Of a stretch of 64,000 nucleotides of DNA, positions 669-35,858 are shown in pieces (position 1 is the stretch's first letter; every line of letters begins with the position of its first letter). The notes under the pieces were generated by a model. It did not search any database. It had not been told where the DNA came from and saw only the letters and a program-made list of their open reading frames with translations. The translations under genes and the position numbers were made by a program. Source of the stretch: Halomicrobium urmianum (lineage in GTDB: Archaea; Halobacteriota; Halobacteria; Halobacteriales; Haloarculaceae). The stretch spans positions 1,488,001-1,552,000 of the forward strand of contig NZ_CP084090.1 in NCBI RefSeq assembly GCF_020217425.1, given 5' to 3'.

Positions 669-721
669 GAAAATCGCCTCCGGCGATTTTCATCATCCCG
701 AAAGAGCTACGCTCTTTCGGG
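669..721. repeat. Two adjacent perfect hairpins
   Basis: GAAAATCGCC-TCC-GGCGATTTTC (669-691) is followed at once by CCCGAAAGAGC-TAC-GCTCTTTCGGG (697-721). Both are perfect stems of 10 and 11 bp with three-base loops. The second hairpin has a weaker counterpart at the start of repeat copy B (AGAGC-AGA-GCTCT at 17450-17462), so it probably belongs to the larger element. Confidence 0.7.
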
Positions 722-906
722 CGACGTCGTCCGCCGTCGTGTAGCCGGCCGCCCCCTTTCAGTCCCGCCCGTAGCCGGCTGGTCAATCCACGCTGGGCGG
801 GACTGAAAGGGGCCGAGCGCTCGACTGGTCCCCGGCGAAGCAAGCACCGCAACGGAGTGAGGAGCGCAGCGAGTCGCGGGCCATCGAGCGCTCGGGGGCT
901 TTCTGG
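697..906. repeat. Structured dispersed element, copy A
   Basis: About 210 bp without a plausible gene. In order: a hairpin; a conserved GACGTCGTC..GTAGCC segment; a perfect 18-bp inverted repeat (753-770 and 795-812, beginning CCCCTTTCAG) around a 24-nt loop; a 12-bp stem CCGAGCGCTCGA/TCGAGCGCTCGG (813-824, 884-895) enclosing the shared core GCAAGCACCGCA; and a tail GGGGCTTTCTGG. Copies B (17446) and C (35603) keep this order. The 24-nt loop is inverted here relative to B and C. It could be a non-coding RNA, a MITE-like element, or both. Confidence 0.75.
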
Positions 907-4346: not shown

Positions 4347-7271
4347 ATGGCTACAGACGAGACGGGGTACGAGCCGGCCGAGATCGAGCCGGAGTGGCGC
4401 CAGCGCTGGGCCGAGCAGGAACGGTACGAGGTCGACCCCTCCGAAGAGGACAGTGAGGCGCAACGCGCCTCAGAACAGTCGAGCGGTGACGGGACGGAAC
4501 CGCGAGACAAGACGTTCATCACCGTCCCCTATCCCTACCCGTCGGGCGGGATGCACATCGGGCACGCCCGCACGTACACGGTGCCGGACGTCTACGCCCG
4601 GTACCGCCGCCAGCAGGGCGACAACGTCCTCTTTCCCATCGGCTGGCACGTCACGGGCACGCCGATCATCGGGGCCGTCGAGCGCCTCAAGAAGGGCGAG
4701 GAGAAGCAGCTGTCGGTGCTCCGGGACACCTACAACGTCCCCGAGGACACCCTCGCGGACCTGGAGACGCCGATGGGCTACGCCCGCCACTTCATCGAGG
4801 AGCACTACAAGGCGGGGATGAAGCAGCTGGGCCTCTCGATCGACTGGCGCCGCGAGTTCACCACCGAGGACGACCGCTACGAGAAGTTCATCACCTGGCA
4901 GTACGAGACCCTCAGGGACCGCGGCCTGCTGGAGAAGGGGCTGCACCCGGTCAACTACTGCACGAACGAGGAGCAGCCGGTCACCACCCACGACCTGCTG
5001 GAGGGCGAGGACGAGGAGTTCCAGGAGTACACGCTGATCAAGTTCTCCGCCGACGAGGGCGGCGAGAGCGTCGTCTACCCGATGGCGACGCTGCGGCCCG
5101 AGACGGTGCGGGGCGTCACCAACGCCTACGTCGACCCCGACGCGACGTACGTCCGCGCGACGGTCGATGGCGAGACCTGGATCGTCTCCGAGGACGCCGC
5201 CGAGAAGTTCGAGCTGCAGGCCCGCGACGTCGAGGTCCACGAGCGGATCGACGGCGCCGATCTGGTCGGCCGCCGCGTCGACAACCCCGTCACGGGCGAC
5301 GAGATCCCGATTCTGCCCGCGGACTTCGTCGACGTCGACAACGCCACCGGCGTCGTCATGTCCGTCCCGGCTCACTCGCCGGACGACTACGTGGCGCTGC
5401 AGGACGCCAAAGAGCGAGCCGACGACCTGACCGAGTACGGCCTCGACCCCGAGGACGTCCGGGCCATCGAACCCGTCCCGATCCTCTCCGTCGAGGGCTA
5501 CGGCGAGATCCCCGCCCGCGACGCCGTCGAGGAGTACGGCGTCTCCGGCCAGGGCGACCCCGCGCTGGACGATGCGACCCACGAGCTGTACAACGCCGAG
5601 TTCCACGGCGGCGAACTGAACGACGACTACGGCGACTTCGCCGGCGCGGTCATCGAGGACGTCCGCGACGAACTGAAGGAGTACTACCAGAGCCAGGGCG
5701 ACTTCGACGCGATGTACGACTTCGCGGCCGAGGTCGTCTGCCGCTGCGGCGGCGAGGTCGAGGTCGCCGAGCAGGACACCTGGTTCCTGCGATACAACGA
5801 CGAGGAGTGGACCGCGAAGGTCGAGCGGGCCATCGAGAACCTCGACGCCATCCCGGAAAACACCCGCCAGCAGTACTACAACACCGTCGACTGGCTGGAG
5901 GAGTGGCCCTGCATCCGCAACTACGGCCTGGGCACGCCGCTGCCGTGGGATCCCGAGTTCATCATCGAGCCGCTGTCGGACTCGACGATCTACATGGCCT
6001 ACTACACCATCGCCCACCGGCTGTCGGACGTGCCCGTCGAGGAGCTGGATCGTGACTTCTTCGACGCCCTGTTCTACGGCGAGGAGGCCGTCGAGGACCC
6101 CGACCCGACGGCGCTGGAACTGCGCGAGGAGTGGTCCTACTGGTACCCCGTCGACTACCGCTGCTCCGCCGAGGACCTCATCAACAACCACCTCACCTTC
6201 TTCCTCTACCACCACGCGGAGCTGTTCGACGAGGACGAGTGGCCCCAGGGGATCACCGGCATGGGCATGGGCCTGCTGGAGGGCCAGAAGATGTCCTCCT
6301 CGAAGGGCCACGTGGTCCTGCCCGACGAGGCCATCAGCGAGTACGGCGCCGACACCGTCCGCTTCTTCCTGCTGAACAGTTCCGAGCCCTGGCAGGACTT
6401 CGACTGGCGGTCCGACGAGGTCGGCTCCACGCACGACCAGCTGGCGCGGTTCTGGTCGCGGGCCGTCGAGCTGATCGATGGCCCCGAAGGCGACCGCGAC
6501 GCCCTCGAGGACATCGACCGCTGGCTGCTGGCGAAGCTCCAGGAGACCGTCGAGGCCGTCACAGACAGCCTGGAGCGCTTCGAGACCCGCACCGCCAGCC
6601 AGGAAGCGTTCTACCGCTTCGAGGAGCAGCTGCGGTGGTACCGCCGGCGCGCCGACCTCGACCGGCCGGGCGCCCGGTGGACGCTGCGCCACGTACTGGA
6701 GACGCGCCTGCGCCTGCTGGCCCCCTTCGTCCCGTTCATGGCCAACGAACTGCACGAGCGCCTGACCGGCACGCCCGCCGAGGACGCCCCGTGGCCCGAG
6801 GTCGACGAGGCGTTCCGCGACGAGTCCGCCGTCGCCAGCGAGGCGCTGGTCGAGGACCTCCACGAGGACGTCGCCGACATCCTCGAAGTCACCGGCGAGG
6901 ACCCCGAGACCATCCGCGTGTACGTCGCCGCCGACTGGAAGCGCGACGTGTTCGCCGCCGTCCGCGAGGCCGGGGCGAACGTCGGCGCGGTGATGAGCGA
7001 GGCGATGTCGAACCCGGACCTGCGCGAGAAGGGCGACGCCGTCAACGACCACGCGCAGGAACTGGTCGAGTTCGCCCGCGGCCGCGACGACGGCGAACTG
7101 GCGACGCTCGCGGCCCTGGACGAGCGGGCCGTCTACGAGGACGCCGCCGACTTCCTGGCCCGCGAGCACGACGCCGACGTCGAGGTGTACGCGGAAGACG
7201 AGGACCCCGAGGACCCCGCGGGCAAGGCCGACCAGGCCGTCCCGTTCCGGCCGGCCATCCACGTCGAGTAA
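4347..7271 (+). CDS. leuS: Leucyl-tRNA synthetase
   Basis: 974 residues, start chosen at MATDETGYEPAEIEPEW; a slightly longer frame begins 18 bp earlier. It charges tRNA-Leu. The class I signatures are both present: HIGH at residues 70-73 (PYPSGGMHIGHARTY) and KMSSS at 648-652. The editing domain lies between them, and the anticodon-binding and C-terminal archaeal extensions follow. Length fits archaeal LeuRS. Residues about 31-53 form an acidic, Ser/Glu-rich insert (EEDSEAQRASEQ) encoded partly by a palindrome at 4454-4472, apparently an in-frame repeat insertion before the catalytic domain. Confidence 0.97.
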   Translation: MATDETGYEPAEIEPEWRQRWAEQERYEVDPSEEDSEAQRASEQSSGDGTEPRDKTFITVPYPYPSGGMHIGHARTYTVPDVYARYRRQQGDNVLFPIGWHVTGTPIIGAVERLKKGEEKQLSVLRDTYNVPEDTLADLETPMGYARHFIEEHYKAGMKQLGLSIDWRREFTTEDDRYEKFITWQYETLRDRGLLEKGLHPVNYCTNEEQPVTTHDLLEGEDEEFQEYTLIKFSADEGGESVVYPMATLRPETVRGVTNAYVDPDATYVRATVDGETWIVSEDAAEKFELQARDVEVHERIDGADLVGRRVDNPVTGDEIPILPADFVDVDNATGVVMSVPAHSPDDYVALQDAKERADDLTEYGLDPEDVRAIEPVPILSVEGYGEIPARDAVEEYGVSGQGDPALDDATHELYNAEFHGGELNDDYGDFAGAVIEDVRDELKEYYQSQGDFDAMYDFAAEVVCRCGGEVEVAEQDTWFLRYNDEEWTAKVERAIENLDAIPENTRQQYYNTVDWLEEWPCIRNYGLGTPLPWDPEFIIEPLSDSTIYMAYYTIAHRLSDVPVEELDRDFFDALFYGEEAVEDPDPTALELREEWSYWYPVDYRCSAEDLINNHLTFFLYHHAELFDEDEWPQGITGMGMGLLEGQKMSSSKGHVVLPDEAISEYGADTVRFFLLNSSEPWQDFDWRSDEVGSTHDQLARFWSRAVELIDGPEGDRDALEDIDRWLLAKLQETVEAVTDSLERFETRTASQEAFYRFEEQLRWYRRRADLDRPGARWTLRHVLETRLRLLAPFVPFMANELHERLTGTPAEDAPWPEVDEAFRDESAVASEALVEDLHEDVADILEVTGEDPETIRVYVAADWKRDVFAAVREAGANVGAVMSEAMSNPDLREKGDAVNDHAQELVEFARGRDDGELATLAALDERAVYEDAADFLAREHDADVEVYAEDEDPEDPAGKADQAVPFRPAIHVE
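4454..4472. repeat. Palindrome inside leuS
   Basis: TGAGGCGC-AAC-GCGCCTCA, a perfect 8-bp stem in the reading frame of leuS that encodes the SEAQRAS segment. Similar GAGGCGC..GCGCCTC motifs occur as intergenic repeats in haloarchaea (recollection), so this looks like a REP-type sequence accommodated within a gene. Confidence 0.6.
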
Positions 7272-15514: not shown

Positions 15515-15582
15515 GAGAGCGACCACGGGGCGGTCCCCCTAATACGCTTGCCCGGCTAGGTGTTGCGAATCGGGAAGAAACA

Positions 15583-15599: not shown

Positions 15600-15605
15600 G
15601 AACAT

Positions 15606-15720
15606 TGACCTCCTCCCGCGCCTGAAGACGCGGGAATCCCACCATGGGATTTCAGGCCGAGTGTGGCCCTGTGGTTTCAAGACGCATACGTTCCACGCGT
15701 CTCTTGCTGGGTTGCACCAT
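15606..15720 (-). ncRNA. Probable omega (reRNA) guide RNA of TnpB
   Basis: By analogy with characterised TnpB systems, the RNA scaffold spans the 3' end of tnpB and the right-end hairpin (15615-15634), with the guide reading out into flanking DNA below 15604. The hairpin is visible; the rest, including boundaries, is inference. Confidence 0.4.
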
Positions 15721-16915
15721 CGGCGTGGCTGTCTTGTGGCGCGGTCAAACACGCCCCATCCTCAGCCGAGTCATCGTCGATCTCGTGTTCTCTGGACCGA
15801 CTCTCTCCGCTGAGGTAGCGGTCCGCGATGTTTATCGCCCCGTTCACGTCTGCCTGGTATTCGCCCATCCAGCAGCCGTCGTTCGTGCATTTGAACGTCG
15901 CCTGCTTCGGACGATACCCCACTTCACCACACGCGTGGCACTCTTTCGAGGTGTTGCGCGGATTCACCGTCTCGACGGGAATTCCCGTCTCGACAGCCTT
16001 GTACCGTATCTGCGCGTGGAGTTTGGCGAACGCCCAGCCGTGAAGACGGCGATTCATATACTCACCGTAGTCCATCGACTCCCGAATGTAGGTCAGGTCT
16101 TCCAGAACCAGCACTTGGTTCGGGACAGACTCGGCGTGCTCGACGACGTCGCGGGTGACACAGTGGAACACGTCGTCGATGTGGTTCCACAGGGCGTCGC
16201 CGAACGACTCGGCGATACGGTCGCTGCCGCGTTCTTGGAGCCGTCGCGTGGCGGTGAAGTAGGTTTTGCGGAGCCGACGAACGGTCTTGCCCTCGTCGGC
16301 CCACAGCTCGGGACGGGTCGGAGAACCGCCCTCGTCGCGGTGACACACCGTGGCGAGTGACGCTTCCCCGATATCGACTCCGATCGGCGTTCGTTCGTCA
16401 GCGGCCACCCCGGAACAGTCCTCCACGCCGCGGGTGGCGGTGACGTGGAGATACCACGTCTCATCCCGCTGGAAGAGCCGACGCTCACCCATCTCCGCGT
16501 CACCAGCGTTCACGGCTTCTAACCACTCCCGTTGGTCGGGGTTCGGTTGTGCTGGCAGCCAGAGGTGGTAGTCCTCGTGGTGCGGAATTTTGACGTACCA
16601 CTCGATAGCGTTCTGGGGGTTGTGATCGAGCCGGAGCCCCTCGTTTGTGAACCGAACTGGGTGGTCGTCGTGTAGCTCATCTGCATTGTACGTCGTCGTC
16701 AACTGCGGGACGTACTTCTTGAGGGCGTTTTTCGCGTACCCTGATAGGTCGTAGTTGACCACCACGTCGTTCGCTTCAGTTTGAGTGGTGCAACCAGCGT
16801 CGAACGCATCGGCGAGGGCCTGCTGGTAGGCGTCGCGCGTCTCTTGGAGTTTCCGCCGTTTGTGCGCGTTCGGGTCGACCAGCTTCAACTCCAGCGTCTT
16901 GGTGAGCTCGGTCAT
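15677..16915 (-). CDS. tnpB: TnpB RNA-guided nuclease (IS605 OrfB)
   Basis: 412 residues. The RuvC-like catalytic triad is complete: D181 in IGVDIGEAS, E272 in VLVLEDLTY, and D356 in ADVNGAINIADRY. The zinc finger is formed by C326, C329, C343 and C348. An N-terminal helix-turn-helix/wedge region with the usual ELKLVDPNAHKRRKLQETRDAY start is present. Family members are RNA-guided DNA endonucleases that help the element persist. The start overlaps the tnpA stop (ATGA), giving translational coupling. No truncation or frameshift is seen. Confidence 0.93.
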   Translation of the reverse strand: MTELTKTLELKLVDPNAHKRRKLQETRDAYQQALADAFDAGCTTQTEANDVVVNYDLSGYAKNALKKYVPQLTTTYNADELHDDHPVRFTNEGLRLDHNPQNAIEWYVKIPHHEDYHLWLPAQPNPDQREWLEAVNAGDAEMGERRLFQRDETWYLHVTATRGVEDCSGVAADERTPIGVDIGEASLATVCHRDEGGSPTRPELWADEGKTVRRLRKTYFTATRRLQERGSDRIAESFGDALWNHIDDVFHCVTRDVVEHAESVPNQVLVLEDLTYIRESMDYGEYMNRRLHGWAFAKLHAQIRYKAVETGIPVETVNPRNTSKECHACGEVGYRPKQATFKCTNDGCWMGEYQADVNGAINIADRYLSGESRSREHEIDDDSAEDGACLTAPQDSHADGATQQETRGTYAS

Positions 16916-17301
16916 TGCTCGCCCTCTTCGTGACGCTGGATGTAGTCCTGAACCGTCTCACTGGACACGTGGCCCGCCGTCCCTGCGTAGTAGCCCCGCG
17001 CCCAGCGAATCTTTTCGTCTTCGGTGTCGGCGTAGCGGTGGTTGTACTTCCGTGAGGGAATCCCCTTGAACCAGTTGGCGAGAAGCGATGGGGCGTGTTT
17101 CGGCGGGCTGCTGACGAACAGGTGAACGTGGTCGGGTCGAACGGTCAGGTCGAGTATCTCTACACCCTTGTCGTCGGCGATCTCGTGGAGGATGTCTCGC
17201 ACACGGTCTGCGACCTCCCCGGAGAGTACCGAGTTGCGGTACTTCGGCAACCACACTATGTGGTAGTTGAGAGTGTAGGTCGCGTGCCGTGTGGTCTTCA
17301 T
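16912..17301 (-). CDS. tnpA: TnpA Y1 transposase (IS200/IS605)
   Basis: 129 residues, the normal size for the Y1-type HUH transposase. The metal-binding HUH motif is H58-V-H60 in RPDHVHLFVS and the catalytic tyrosine is Y120 in SSETVQDYIQRH. It acts on single-stranded DNA by recognising the subterminal hairpins of the element. It is intact, and together with tnpB makes the element potentially autonomous. Confidence 0.93.
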   Translation of the reverse strand: MKTTRHATYTLNYHIVWLPKYRNSVLSGEVADRVRDILHEIADDKGVEILDLTVRPDHVHLFVSSPPKHAPSLLANWFKGIPSRKYNHRYADTEDEKIRWARGYYAGTAGHVSSETVQDYIQRHEEGEQ

Positions 17302-17445
17302 CCGTGTTGTGCACTATTGGACTTGAGACCTTAATTCCACCAGTAGAACCGTTGGAAATCCAGTCGTGACGTCGTCGATAGAAGTAGAGGCTGTTGTCCG
17401 CTTGACCCCCGCCTAAAGACGGGGTATGTGCTCGCTACTGTATCA

Positions 17446-17656
17446 CGGAAGAGCAGAGCTCTCTCGGACGACGTCGTCGGGGTTCGCGTAGCCAGCCACC
17501 CCTTTCAGTCCCGCCCAGCGCCGGTTGAACAGCCGGCTACGGGCGGGACTGAAAGGGGCGCCCTGCTCGACGAAGGCAGGCGAAGCAAGCACCGCAGGGA
17601 GGAACGACCGAGGAGCACAGCGAGCCTCCCGAGTCGAGCAGGGCGGGGCTTTCTGG
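17446..17656. repeat. Structured dispersed element, copy B
   Basis: Same order of parts as copy A: hairpin AGAGC-AGA-GCTCT, GACGTCGTC..GTAGCC, perfect 18-bp inverted repeat (17499-17516, 17541-17558) with a 24-nt loop, 12-bp stem CGCCCTGCTCGA/TCGAGCAGGGCG (17559-17570, 17634-17645), core GCAAGCACCGCA and tail GGGGCTTTCTGG. The stem differs from copy A at most positions yet is fully complementary. The loop matches copy C directly and copy A only as reverse complement (20 of 24). It begins about 20 bp outside the insertion element and ends about 100 bp before ahcY. Confidence 0.75.
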
Positions 17657-17758
17657 TTGTTCTCACCATTCGAACCAACACTTCCAGAACTCTCAGTTAC
17701 TCCTAGCCGTCGCGTCGATGGCAGGGGGTTTTTGACGGGGCTGCCCGTCGATAGAGGC

Positions 17759-19044: not shown

Positions 19045-19290
19045 AATCGAACTATGGGCCTCCCGACGCCAGCGCGGCCGGGAGCGGCCTCCGTGCCGCG
19101 ACCCGGGGAAGGGCAGGGCTGCAGTCCTGGCGGACGAAAGGGCGAGGCGCGGTCGCGGGATGTGCGCGGGCACTGTCCGAGCGCAGCGAGGATATCCCGC
19201 ACAGATCCCGCGAGCGGGCCGAGGGCTTTCTGTGCGTTCGCTGCTGTAGTGGTTCCAGCGAGCGGGCCGAGGGCTTGCTGAACTGACACA
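19045..19290. repeat. Repeat-rich intergenic stretch (possible divergent copy D)
   Basis: A non-coding 350-bp gap. It contains GACGAAAGGGC (about 19119) and, downstream, GAGCGCAGCGAG and GAGGGCTTTCTG, echoing the core and tail of copies A-C. The 19-bp unit GCGAGCGGGCCGAGGGCTT occurs twice (19210-19228 and 19258-19276). The 18-bp inverted repeat of A and B is not preserved, so membership is tentative. Confidence 0.45.
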
Positions 19291-33630: not shown

Positions 33631-35560
33631 ATGGACAGGCGGCAGTTCCTGGCCGGAACGGCGGCCGGAGCAGCGGGCGCGCTGGCCGGCTGTTCGGACC
33701 GGAGCGAGTCCGCAAGCGCGTCTCGCCCGCCGCGGCTGAGCGTAGAGGGACGATGGCTGACCGATCCTGACGGGCATCGGGTCGTCCTCAGGGGGGTCAA
33801 CGTCGTCGACCCCCGGTGGGGCGTCCGGAACGAGGACGAGCGCGGCAAGGGCTACCGGGACACGTTGCGGCTGGCGACCGACGCCGACGCCGGCTGGCAC
33901 GCGCGAGTCCTCCGGGTCCCGGTCACGCCCGCTTCCGTGCGGGCCGCGAGGCTGGGAACGCTCCTCGAGGACTACCTCGACCGGGTCGTCGAACTGGCGG
34001 CAGAGCAGGGCGTGTACGTCCTCATCGACTACCACGCCATCGAGCGGTACGACACCTCCGAGATCGACACCAGGCTCCGGGAGTTCTGGGACCGCGTGGC
34101 GCCGCGGTACGCCGACGAGGCCCACGTCCTCTACGAGCTGTTCAACGAACCGACCGAGCCGGCCGGGAACGGAATCGAGAGCTGGCGGGCCTGGCGCGAG
34201 ACGGCCCAGCCGTGGGTCGACCTGATCCGCGACCGGGCGCCGGAGACGCCGGTCCTCGTCGGGTCGCCGCAGTGGACGTCGATGACCCGCTTCGCGCCGG
34301 AGGCCCCCTTCGACGGGGAGGACCTGCTGTACACGGTCCACCTGTTCCCCTCCTGGGAGCGGGACACCTGGGAGGCGAACTTCGGCGATCCGGCCCTCGA
34401 CGTGCCCGTCTTCGTCACCGAGTGGGGGTACGCCAACGCCGACGGCGAGCGATACGAACCGCACATGGTCGGCACGACCGAGGACTGGGGCCGGCCGTTC
34501 CGGCGGTGGACGGAGACGCACCCGGACGTCAACTGGTGCGCCTGGACGTTCGACTCCCACTGGGCCCCCAACATGTTCGACCACGACTGGAACCTGCTGG
34601 GCGGCGACGACTACATGGGCCAGTTCACGAAGGAGTGGCTCCGGGACGCCCGCGACGAGCACCCCGTGTCCGGCGACGCCACGTCGACTATCGCCGAGGG
34701 CGCCCCGGCGCCGCCGGCGGCGTGCGCGTCGAGAAGGTGGTGCCGACCCGGGTCGACCTCGCCTGGGACGGAGCCGACGGCGTCGCCCAGTACCGCGTGG
34801 CCGTCGACGACCGGGTCGAGATACTGCCCGGCACCGCCACCGGTGCGTCGATCGGCGACCTCACTCCCGGCGAGACATACCGGTTCGCCCTCGTCGCCGT
34901 CGGCAGCGACGGGGCCACCTCCGACTCGACGGCGGTCACCGCCACCCCGCCGAAGCCGACCGAGCCCGCCGCGACGATTCCCCGGACCCCGACCGTCCCC
35001 GAGATCGACGGCGCGGTCGACGACGCCTGGTCTGACGTCCCGAGCCACGCCATCGACCGGACGGTGGTGTCCACCGACGTCGAGACCGACCTGGTCGCCT
35101 CCTGGCGGGCGCTGTGGGACGAGACGGCGCTGTACGTCCTCGTCGACGTGACCGACGGCGACGCCTGGACCGACTCCACCAAGAGCTGGAACGACGACTC
35201 CGTCGAGGTGTACCTCGACCCCGACGACAGCCGCGAGGACGAGTACGACGGGGAGAACGACCGCCAGTTGATCGTCCCGCGCGATTGGGAGCGGATCCTG
35301 TCCGGCGCCAACTCCGCCGGCGACACCGAGGCGATCGAGTTCGCCCGGACCGAAACCGACGACGGCTACCGCGTCGAACTCGCCGTCCCCTGGGACGTGC
35401 AGGGGTCGACCCCACACTCGGCCATCGGATGGGCATGGACGTCCACGTCATCGAGGACCACGACGGCGGCGAACGCGACGAGAAGCGGGCCTGGTACGCC
35501 ACCGACGACACCGCGTGGGAGAACCCCCAGACGTTCGCCGTCGTGCGGCTGGGTGAGTAG
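33631..35560 (+). pseudogene. Tat-lipoprotein GH5 glycosidase + FN3 + CBM9-like, two frameshifts
   Basis: MDRRQFLAGTAAGAAGALAGC is a Tat signal with lipobox; an ATG 27 bp upstream is less likely because a TATA-like GTTTTAATG fits leaderless start here. GH5 domain: catalytic acid/base in [10 protein letters not shown] and nucleophile in [10 protein letters not shown]. Near 34705 the frame drops by one base, continuing as an FN3-like domain ([19 protein letters not shown]) and a CBM9-like domain ([20 protein letters not shown]). Near 35403 it drops again to reach [20 protein letters not shown] and a stop at 35560. Adding one C to CCCC (34703-34706) and one G to GGGG (35402-35405) restores about 640 residues. 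Likely a cellulase/mannanase-type secreted enzyme, broken or mis-sequenced. Confidence 0.78.
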
Positions 35561-35602
35561 CGGTGGGCTTCGTATCGACGGAAGATACGAACAGCCGGAC
35601 AG

Positions 35603-35772
35603 CCCCGGCCTTTTCAGGCCAGCCCAGCGCCGGTCGATCAGCCGACCTGGGCGGGACCGAAAGGGTCAGTCGCTCGGCGGAGACGGACGACGCAAGCACC
35701 GCAGGAGCGAACGGAGTGAGCGACGAGGAGCGCGGCGAGTGCATCGAGCCGAACGACTGGGGACTTGCTGGC
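35603..35772. repeat. Structured dispersed element, copy C (degenerate)
   Basis: The left arm of the 18-bp repeat is decayed; the loop (AGCGCCGGTCGATCAGCCG..) and the right arm GGGCGGGACCGAAAGGG (about 35650-35666) remain. The following stem CAGTCGCTCGGC/GCCGAACGACTG (35667-35678, 35748-35759) pairs at 11 of 12 positions although its sequence differs from A and B. The core GCAAGCACCGCA is identical, and the tail is GGGGACTTGCTGG. The loop orientation is as in copy B. Confidence 0.65.
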
Positions 35773-35858
35773 CGTTCACACGCTCTTCCACGGTACGAAA
35801 AGCAGCTAGTGGTCGTCCCGTCAGAGCTTTCACCGCCCACCGTTCAGCACCCACAGGA

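Follow-up and report, generated by a model that had tools for sequence, protein, structure and literature searches.

Three copies in the window and the layout of the element

The window, by which we mean the whole stretch of 64,000 nt of Halomicrobium urmianum DNA that was analysed, contains three intergenic copies (A, B, and C) of a palindromic element, whose core GCAAGCACCGCA lies at 840-851 in copy A, 17585-17596 in copy B and 35692-35703 in copy C. The three copies, with their stems, cores and tails, had been described in the initial annotation, and all of them were found at the places given there. The tail is CTTTCTGG in copies A and B, and CTTGCTGG in copy C. The stems that enclose the core, claimed to be complementary at 12/12, 12/12 and 11/12 positions, pair as described: 813-824 with 884-895 in copy A (12/12), 17559-17570 with 17634-17645 in copy B (12/12, and 13/13 when lengthened by one), and 35667-35678 with 35748-35759 in copy C (11/12, with a single C-A). 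The extents proposed earlier hold for the right half of the element, but the left repeat and left arm had been overlooked, and copy A spans at least 531-908. The folding energy is far below that of shuffled sequences in copies A (z = -6.5) and B (z = -6.6), and modestly so in copy C (z = -2.6).

The full element is dyad-symmetric. In the order seen in the other copies of the genome, it comprises AGCCAGAAAGCCCC, a left arm, CCCCTTTCAGTCCCGCCC, a short loop, GGGCGGGACTGAAAGGGG, a right arm, and GGGGCTTTCTGGCT. The first and last of these form an inner inverted repeat, framing the element as GAAAG..CTTTC, and the central hairpin is flanked by one or two hairpin arms, with an outer inverted repeat beyond them in many copies. 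In each arm, about 12-13 bp of stem enclose a conserved tip, GCAAGCACCGCA..GAGGAGCGCAGCGAG, which is present as its reverse complement on the left. Because the element is dyad-symmetric, a cloverleaf can form on either of the DNA strands. Family members are about 200-450 bp long, and the copies bounded by the listed outer repeat pairs measure 208-518 bp. One arm is missing in some copies, which are joined at the short repeats GGGCGGGACT/TTCTGG (L012, L022, and L024).

In copy A, the left inner inverted repeat AGCCAGAAAGCCCC (531-544), which recurs in other copies, is followed by the left arm on the minus strand (545-750; L001-), where a 13-bp stem, GACCGGCTACAC/GTGTAGCCGGCC, surrounds a 182-nt tip with nested palindromes such as that at 697-721. 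Sequence and folding place the central hairpin at 753-812, with CCCCTTTCAGTCCCGCCC at 753-770 and GGGCGGGACTGAAAGGGG at 795-812. A G-quadruplex is a conceivable alternative reading of GGGCGGGACTGAAAGGGG..GGGG. The right arm on the plus strand (813-895) has the stem CCGAGCGCTCGA (813-824)/TCGAGCGCTCGG (884-895) and the tip GCAAGCACCGCA..GAGGAGCGCAGCGAG, and the right inner inverted repeat GGGGCTTTCTGGCT occupies 895-908. As the initial annotation proposed, two exclusive folds are available: the GAAAG at 806-810 can pair upstream, with the CTTTC at 756-760, or downstream, with that of the tail at 899-903. Clear outer ends of copy A were not found.

Copy B has a probable left outer boundary at a CTAG (15556-15559), a word that is enriched 35-75 nt beyond the inner repeat. 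Its left arm appears to be interrupted by an IS200/IS605-type transposon on the minus strand (15605-17447), which encodes TnpA (16912-17301; Y1_Tnp, PF01797, E = 5.6e-37) and TnpB (15677-16915) and has a 98% copy elsewhere in the genome. The truncated arm and the CTAG at the outer boundary suggest that the transposon sits within copy B. The central hairpin (17499-17558) is formed by 17499-17516 and 17541-17558. It is followed by the right arm (17559-17645, plus strand; stem CGCCCTGCTCGAC/GTCGAGCAGGGCG), the right inner inverted repeat GGGCTTTCTGG (17646-17656), and a probable right outer boundary CTAG (17703-17706) about 50 nt beyond CTTTC. In copy C, which is without a left arm, the left inner inverted repeat AACAGCCGGACAGCCCC (35590-35606) leads directly into the central hairpin (35607-35665), the right arm (35667-35759, plus strand; stem CAGTCGCTCGGC/GCCGAACGACTG, 11/12) and the right inner inverted repeat GGGACTTGCTGGCCGTTC (35760-35777). 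A CTAG at 35806-35809 is its probable right outer boundary.

Some features of these and other copies are of separate interest. Copy C lies between a gene (34722-35560) with an apparent frameshift near 35410-35440, whose other frame runs to the stop at 35560, and a gene starting at about 35860 that by eye resembles the Holliday junction resolvase Hjc. Upstream of copy A is a tRNA gene (171-241), and its 3' end CCCGGACGGCGCA (230-242) recurs about 210 bp downstream, at 441-453; the repeat might be a trace of an element integrated at the tRNA site. Elsewhere in the same genome, L024 (near 563000 of contig C1) contains a different small element nested within the copy, with ends TACTGCCGGCTGTAA..TTACAGCCGGCAGTA. 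In L103 of Haloarcula rara, the right end and downstream flank (GGGGCTTTCTGGCTGTTTGCGG..CTCACGG) are tandemly duplicated near 6204. A much longer central arm is present in L402 (CP002989.1, archaeon DL31) and L405 (a Natrinema pellirubrum plasmid), with CCGGAATGGTCGGTCGCGA..GACGCGGAGGGCGG common between the genera. Stretches of 2511 bp of DL31 and of the Halobacterium DL1 plasmid are identical.

Distribution, ends, and known mobile elements

In the genome that holds the window, 24 distinct loci pass E < 1e-5, and the 3.36-Mb contig carries every one of them; relatives have about 40 loci each. A scan of the order for the 18-bp core found it in 138 of 392 genomes and 52 of 95 genera, and gave no match for the reversed control. 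Haloarcula, Halorussus, Natrinema, Haloglomus, and Halonotius are carriers among the matches listed. The family accounts for much of the palindromic intergenic DNA in the window's and related haloarchaeal genomes. None of 143 arms lies within a predicted gene, the predictions being those of a simple codon-usage gene caller made for this analysis. The flanking genes are co-directional in 61 cases, divergent in 50 and convergent in 21 (132 in all), the element having no fixed orientation to them.

In all 28 listed pairs of outer inverted repeats, some of them one site counted twice, the core lies between the two repeats. The form of the repeat varies with the lineage. In several other lineages it is of the form GGYRGTGTTCAGATAAGC, with GG tips and a TGTT motif that match an IS6 transposon; the IS6 family is characterized by 8-bp duplications, GG tips, and a cTGTt motif (PMC7986276). 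Among nine cases compared by eye, allowing a shift of 1-2 bases at the tip, 8-bp target duplications are perfect in three (L132, CACCCCGT; L049, CATCTTCC; L114, AGCGAGAG) and match at 7/8 in two (L048 and L090). The same tip precedes an IS6-family transposase in L043, where the fragment is cut by the locus end and falls short of the family cut-off score, and it is also present in the window's own genome, on IS6 elements that are intact. In these lineages the element is a MITE, presumably moved in trans; the ends and duplications support IS6-driven movement for some lineages only. Viral contigs with an IS6-type tip were taken as chance 14-mers, and the phage collection that was searched gave no match.

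The two relatives designated G191 and G283 have a different outer repeat, AACTACTGTGTTGATCAG. At 11 of 22 ends in the window's genome, CTAG, a rare word, is found 33-78 nt beyond the inner repeat; a control window has none. The IS6-type tip CTGAACA has no exact match at the same 22 ends and one match with a single mismatch, equal to the control window. CTAG could be either a target duplication or part of the element end. A transposase whose ends match those of the window copies was not found. The IS200/IS605 transposon was considered as a general mobiliser and set aside: it adjoins copy B only, which it seems to interrupt. The copies of other genomes are short, have no transposase gene and carry terminal inverted repeats, as expected of MITEs; the ends of the window copies are partly defined.

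The initial annotation knew of no named family that would fit. That is true in part, but the element belongs to the MITE class, in which the IS6-related haloarchaeal MITEHarch3 is listed in ISfinder (PMC6807381). Two IS6 MITEs are listed, MITEBth2 and MITEHarch3, of 227 and 336 bp (PMC7986276, PMC6807381), which is near the lengths of the IS6-type copies with one arm (about 210-225 bp) and two arms (about 324-440 bp). These MITEs likewise lack a transposase, and the tips and 8-bp duplications are shared in some lineages. The comparison with MITEHarch3 is by description only, and the window copies are without IS6-type tips. Neither arm covariation nor in-place inversion is described for IS6 MITEs in the texts consulted. 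Another resemblance is to the SMRs and PATEs of Haloquadratum walsbyi: these too are short non-coding haloarchaeal mobile repeats, have inverted repeats or palindromes near their ends, and often lie one inside another (PMC3119063). However, SMRs are about 80-110 bp, highly uniform, have inverted ends unrelated to transposons and make no target duplication (PMC3119063), whereas the present family is longer and diverse in sequence. PATEs have no terminal repeats, match IS605 ends and also lack target duplication (PMC3119063), unlike the present family, which in other lineages has terminal inverted repeats and 8-bp duplications. The papers searched on palindromic and cruciform repeats of haloarchaea gave no description of the present element. 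In bacteria, REP/BIME (REP: PMC2817692) and Correia-type elements are intergenic palindromic repeats that occur in tens of copies. The present family shares these properties, but differs in its multi-arm cloverleaf with covarying stems.

Remodelling in place and pairing of the stems

G191 and G283 have about a dozen loci in common, with flanks about 90% identical. At 7 of 11 informative orthologous pairs the element is inverted in place, most clearly in L225/L241, where both arms are swapped; the other four are direct (L205/L251 was scored direct from the stem alone). Some elements have lost an arm, the right arm being missing in L221 and present in L228. Whole elements also differ. The element of G283 in L278 (about 5540-5960) corresponds to about 14 bp in G191, where the flank next to the inner repeat is also missing for about 50-75 bp on both sides, and the difference could be a deletion in G191 instead. 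The site of copy B is empty in six relatives, the exact junctions being hidden by intergenic divergence. A clean insertion junction is lacking for the window copies because the intergenic DNA of the nearest relatives compared is too diverged. Insertion sites are polymorphic, as in MITEs, at the sites of copy B and L278, with a deletion in the empty genome as a possible alternative. In-place inversion and arm turnover make natural palindrome dynamics in archaea testable with long reads.

A longer segment also differs between these two genomes. In G283, 6.5 kb lie between two elements (L277 4166-10805; C2:27766-34405), and G191 has one element and no such segment. This difference is a deletion or insertion via recombination between element copies. 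The segment was inspected by eye for an autonomous version of the element, and no recombinase was apparent among its predicted genes.

Among 201 arms, 97.3% of stem pairs are Watson-Crick despite the differing stem sequences, a percentage inflated by the collection of arms, which required a helix. Ranking all column pairs in the alignment of 174 distinct sequences puts stem pairs in the first ten places, each above every value of the tree-simulated null, and another stem pair in the eleventh; 10 of the 12 stem pairs exceed the null. The test follows the R-scape idea in a home-made form, uses a tree-based null, and ignores recombination. From three copies the initial annotation had taken the joint change of both sides of the stem as a signature of selection on structure; the pairing counts and the covariation in the larger alignment strongly support such joint change, the covarying pairs exceeding the tree-based null. 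Orthologous stems likewise differ yet pair (CGAGAGG/CCTCTCG in L211 vs CGATAGG/CCTATCG in L250). The stems differ also between the single-arm orthologs L269 and L275, where a wholesale exchange of the arm is possible.

Explanations of the family and a second family with like arms

The mismatches that do occur are unevenly distributed. On the G-rich strand of each arm, G-T (21), G-G (17), and G-A (14) outnumber A-C (10), C-C (2), and C-T (2), namely, 52 vs 14 (p = 3e-6), or 33 vs 9 when distinct stems are counted; the helix requirement favours no mismatch type over its complement. The asymmetry is present in two-arm elements, whose arms are on opposite strands (29 vs 9), as well as in copies without the left core (23 vs 5). 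Together with the slight wobble excess, it most likely reflects selection for the folding of single strands, of a kind closer to DNA than to RNA. As a simple sequence test, it helps to separate such selection from templated repair.

The family probably represents non-autonomous, MITE-like palindromic mobile elements that are widespread in haloarchaea. Since the stems keep their pairing as they change, and entire elements are flipped in place, we read them as jumping DNA and not as a proven RNA gene. The initial annotation had offered a structured RNA or a mobile hairpin; site differences, terminal repeats, 8-bp duplications, and IS6-type ends favor the mobile branch, and nothing positive was obtained for the RNA branch. 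Resident transposases would move the element in trans, those of the IS6 family where the ends match and, in the window's genome, an enzyme associated with CTAG. Once inserted, the element is remodelled in place by whole-element inversion, probably by way of its inverted repeats; arms are lost at short repeats and probably also exchanged. The stems drift with pairing kept, most likely because the G-rich strand is selected to fold as single-stranded DNA; template-switch repair of imperfect palindromes may contribute.

The interior of the element is kept across lineages whose outer ends differ. Such conservation would be superfluous in a pure passenger and hints that the interior has a function of its own. 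The multi-hairpin interior could accordingly be the functional unit, a cloverleaf of single-stranded DNA (or RNA) under strand-specific selection order-wide, with ends that vary by lineage and with flips in place. We regard this possibility as tentative and less likely than not, together with its corollary that the outer end types (IS6-type, CTAG-type, and AACTACTGTG-type) were acquired lineage by lineage.

It is unlikely that the pairing is purely mutational, with template switching or repair of cruciforms maintaining it and folding under no selection. The high Watson-Crick fraction with few intermediates, the in-place inversion, and the arm turnover would fit, but a strand-symmetric mechanism predicts complementary mismatch types in equal numbers, contrary to the excess seen in all arms and in distinct stems.

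A structured RNA, either a regulator or an intergenic transcript that is processed, is improbable to a somewhat greater degree; in this reading, selection on RNA pairing would preserve the stems, and the spread in copies would be secondary. The covariation beyond the null, the conserved tip motifs, the very stable folds of copies A and B, and the mismatch asymmetry, which indicates that folding of one strand matters, all agree with it. Covarying stems by themselves, however, are no proof of an RNA gene. Structured RNAs usually show a clear wobble excess, but G-U accounts for 21 of 2555 pairs, about as frequent as G-G or G-A, so that there is little such excess. From general thermodynamics we infer a better fit to DNA mismatch stability than to RNA. 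The asymmetry in both arms of two-arm elements, on opposite strands, the variable orientation to genes, and the mobile-element ends also speak against an RNA. At gathering score, Rfam 15 matches only a tRNA within the window; at a loose threshold there are weak chance matches to eukaryotic miRNA models.

An invertible regulatory switch, in which a dedicated recombinase inverts the element and thereby alters expression of the flanking, often divergent, genes, is very improbable: the inverted orthologs with conserved flanks, and the divergent pairs (50 of 132, the most frequent single context), where a predicted start codon often lies about 90-110 bp from an arm end, are suggestive, but inversion of so nearly symmetric an element alters little, recombination between inverted repeats can itself yield it, divergent gaps are perhaps just tolerant targets, and no recombinase was found.

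The arm design extends to a second, larger family, in which a GAAAG..CTTTC frame and the same arms surround a conserved center of about 200 bp, for a total of about 450-700 bp. By sequence comparison, the window holds a partial copy with a like arm, GACGAAAGGGCGAGGC..GAGGGCTTTC, on the plus strand in the interval 19116-19280, of which 19116-19240 is assigned to the copy; another example is at L192:1520-1960. There are dozens of copies in G191 and G283, and partial copies in relatives without the first core. A 718-bp segment with one element of this second family is missing from G191.
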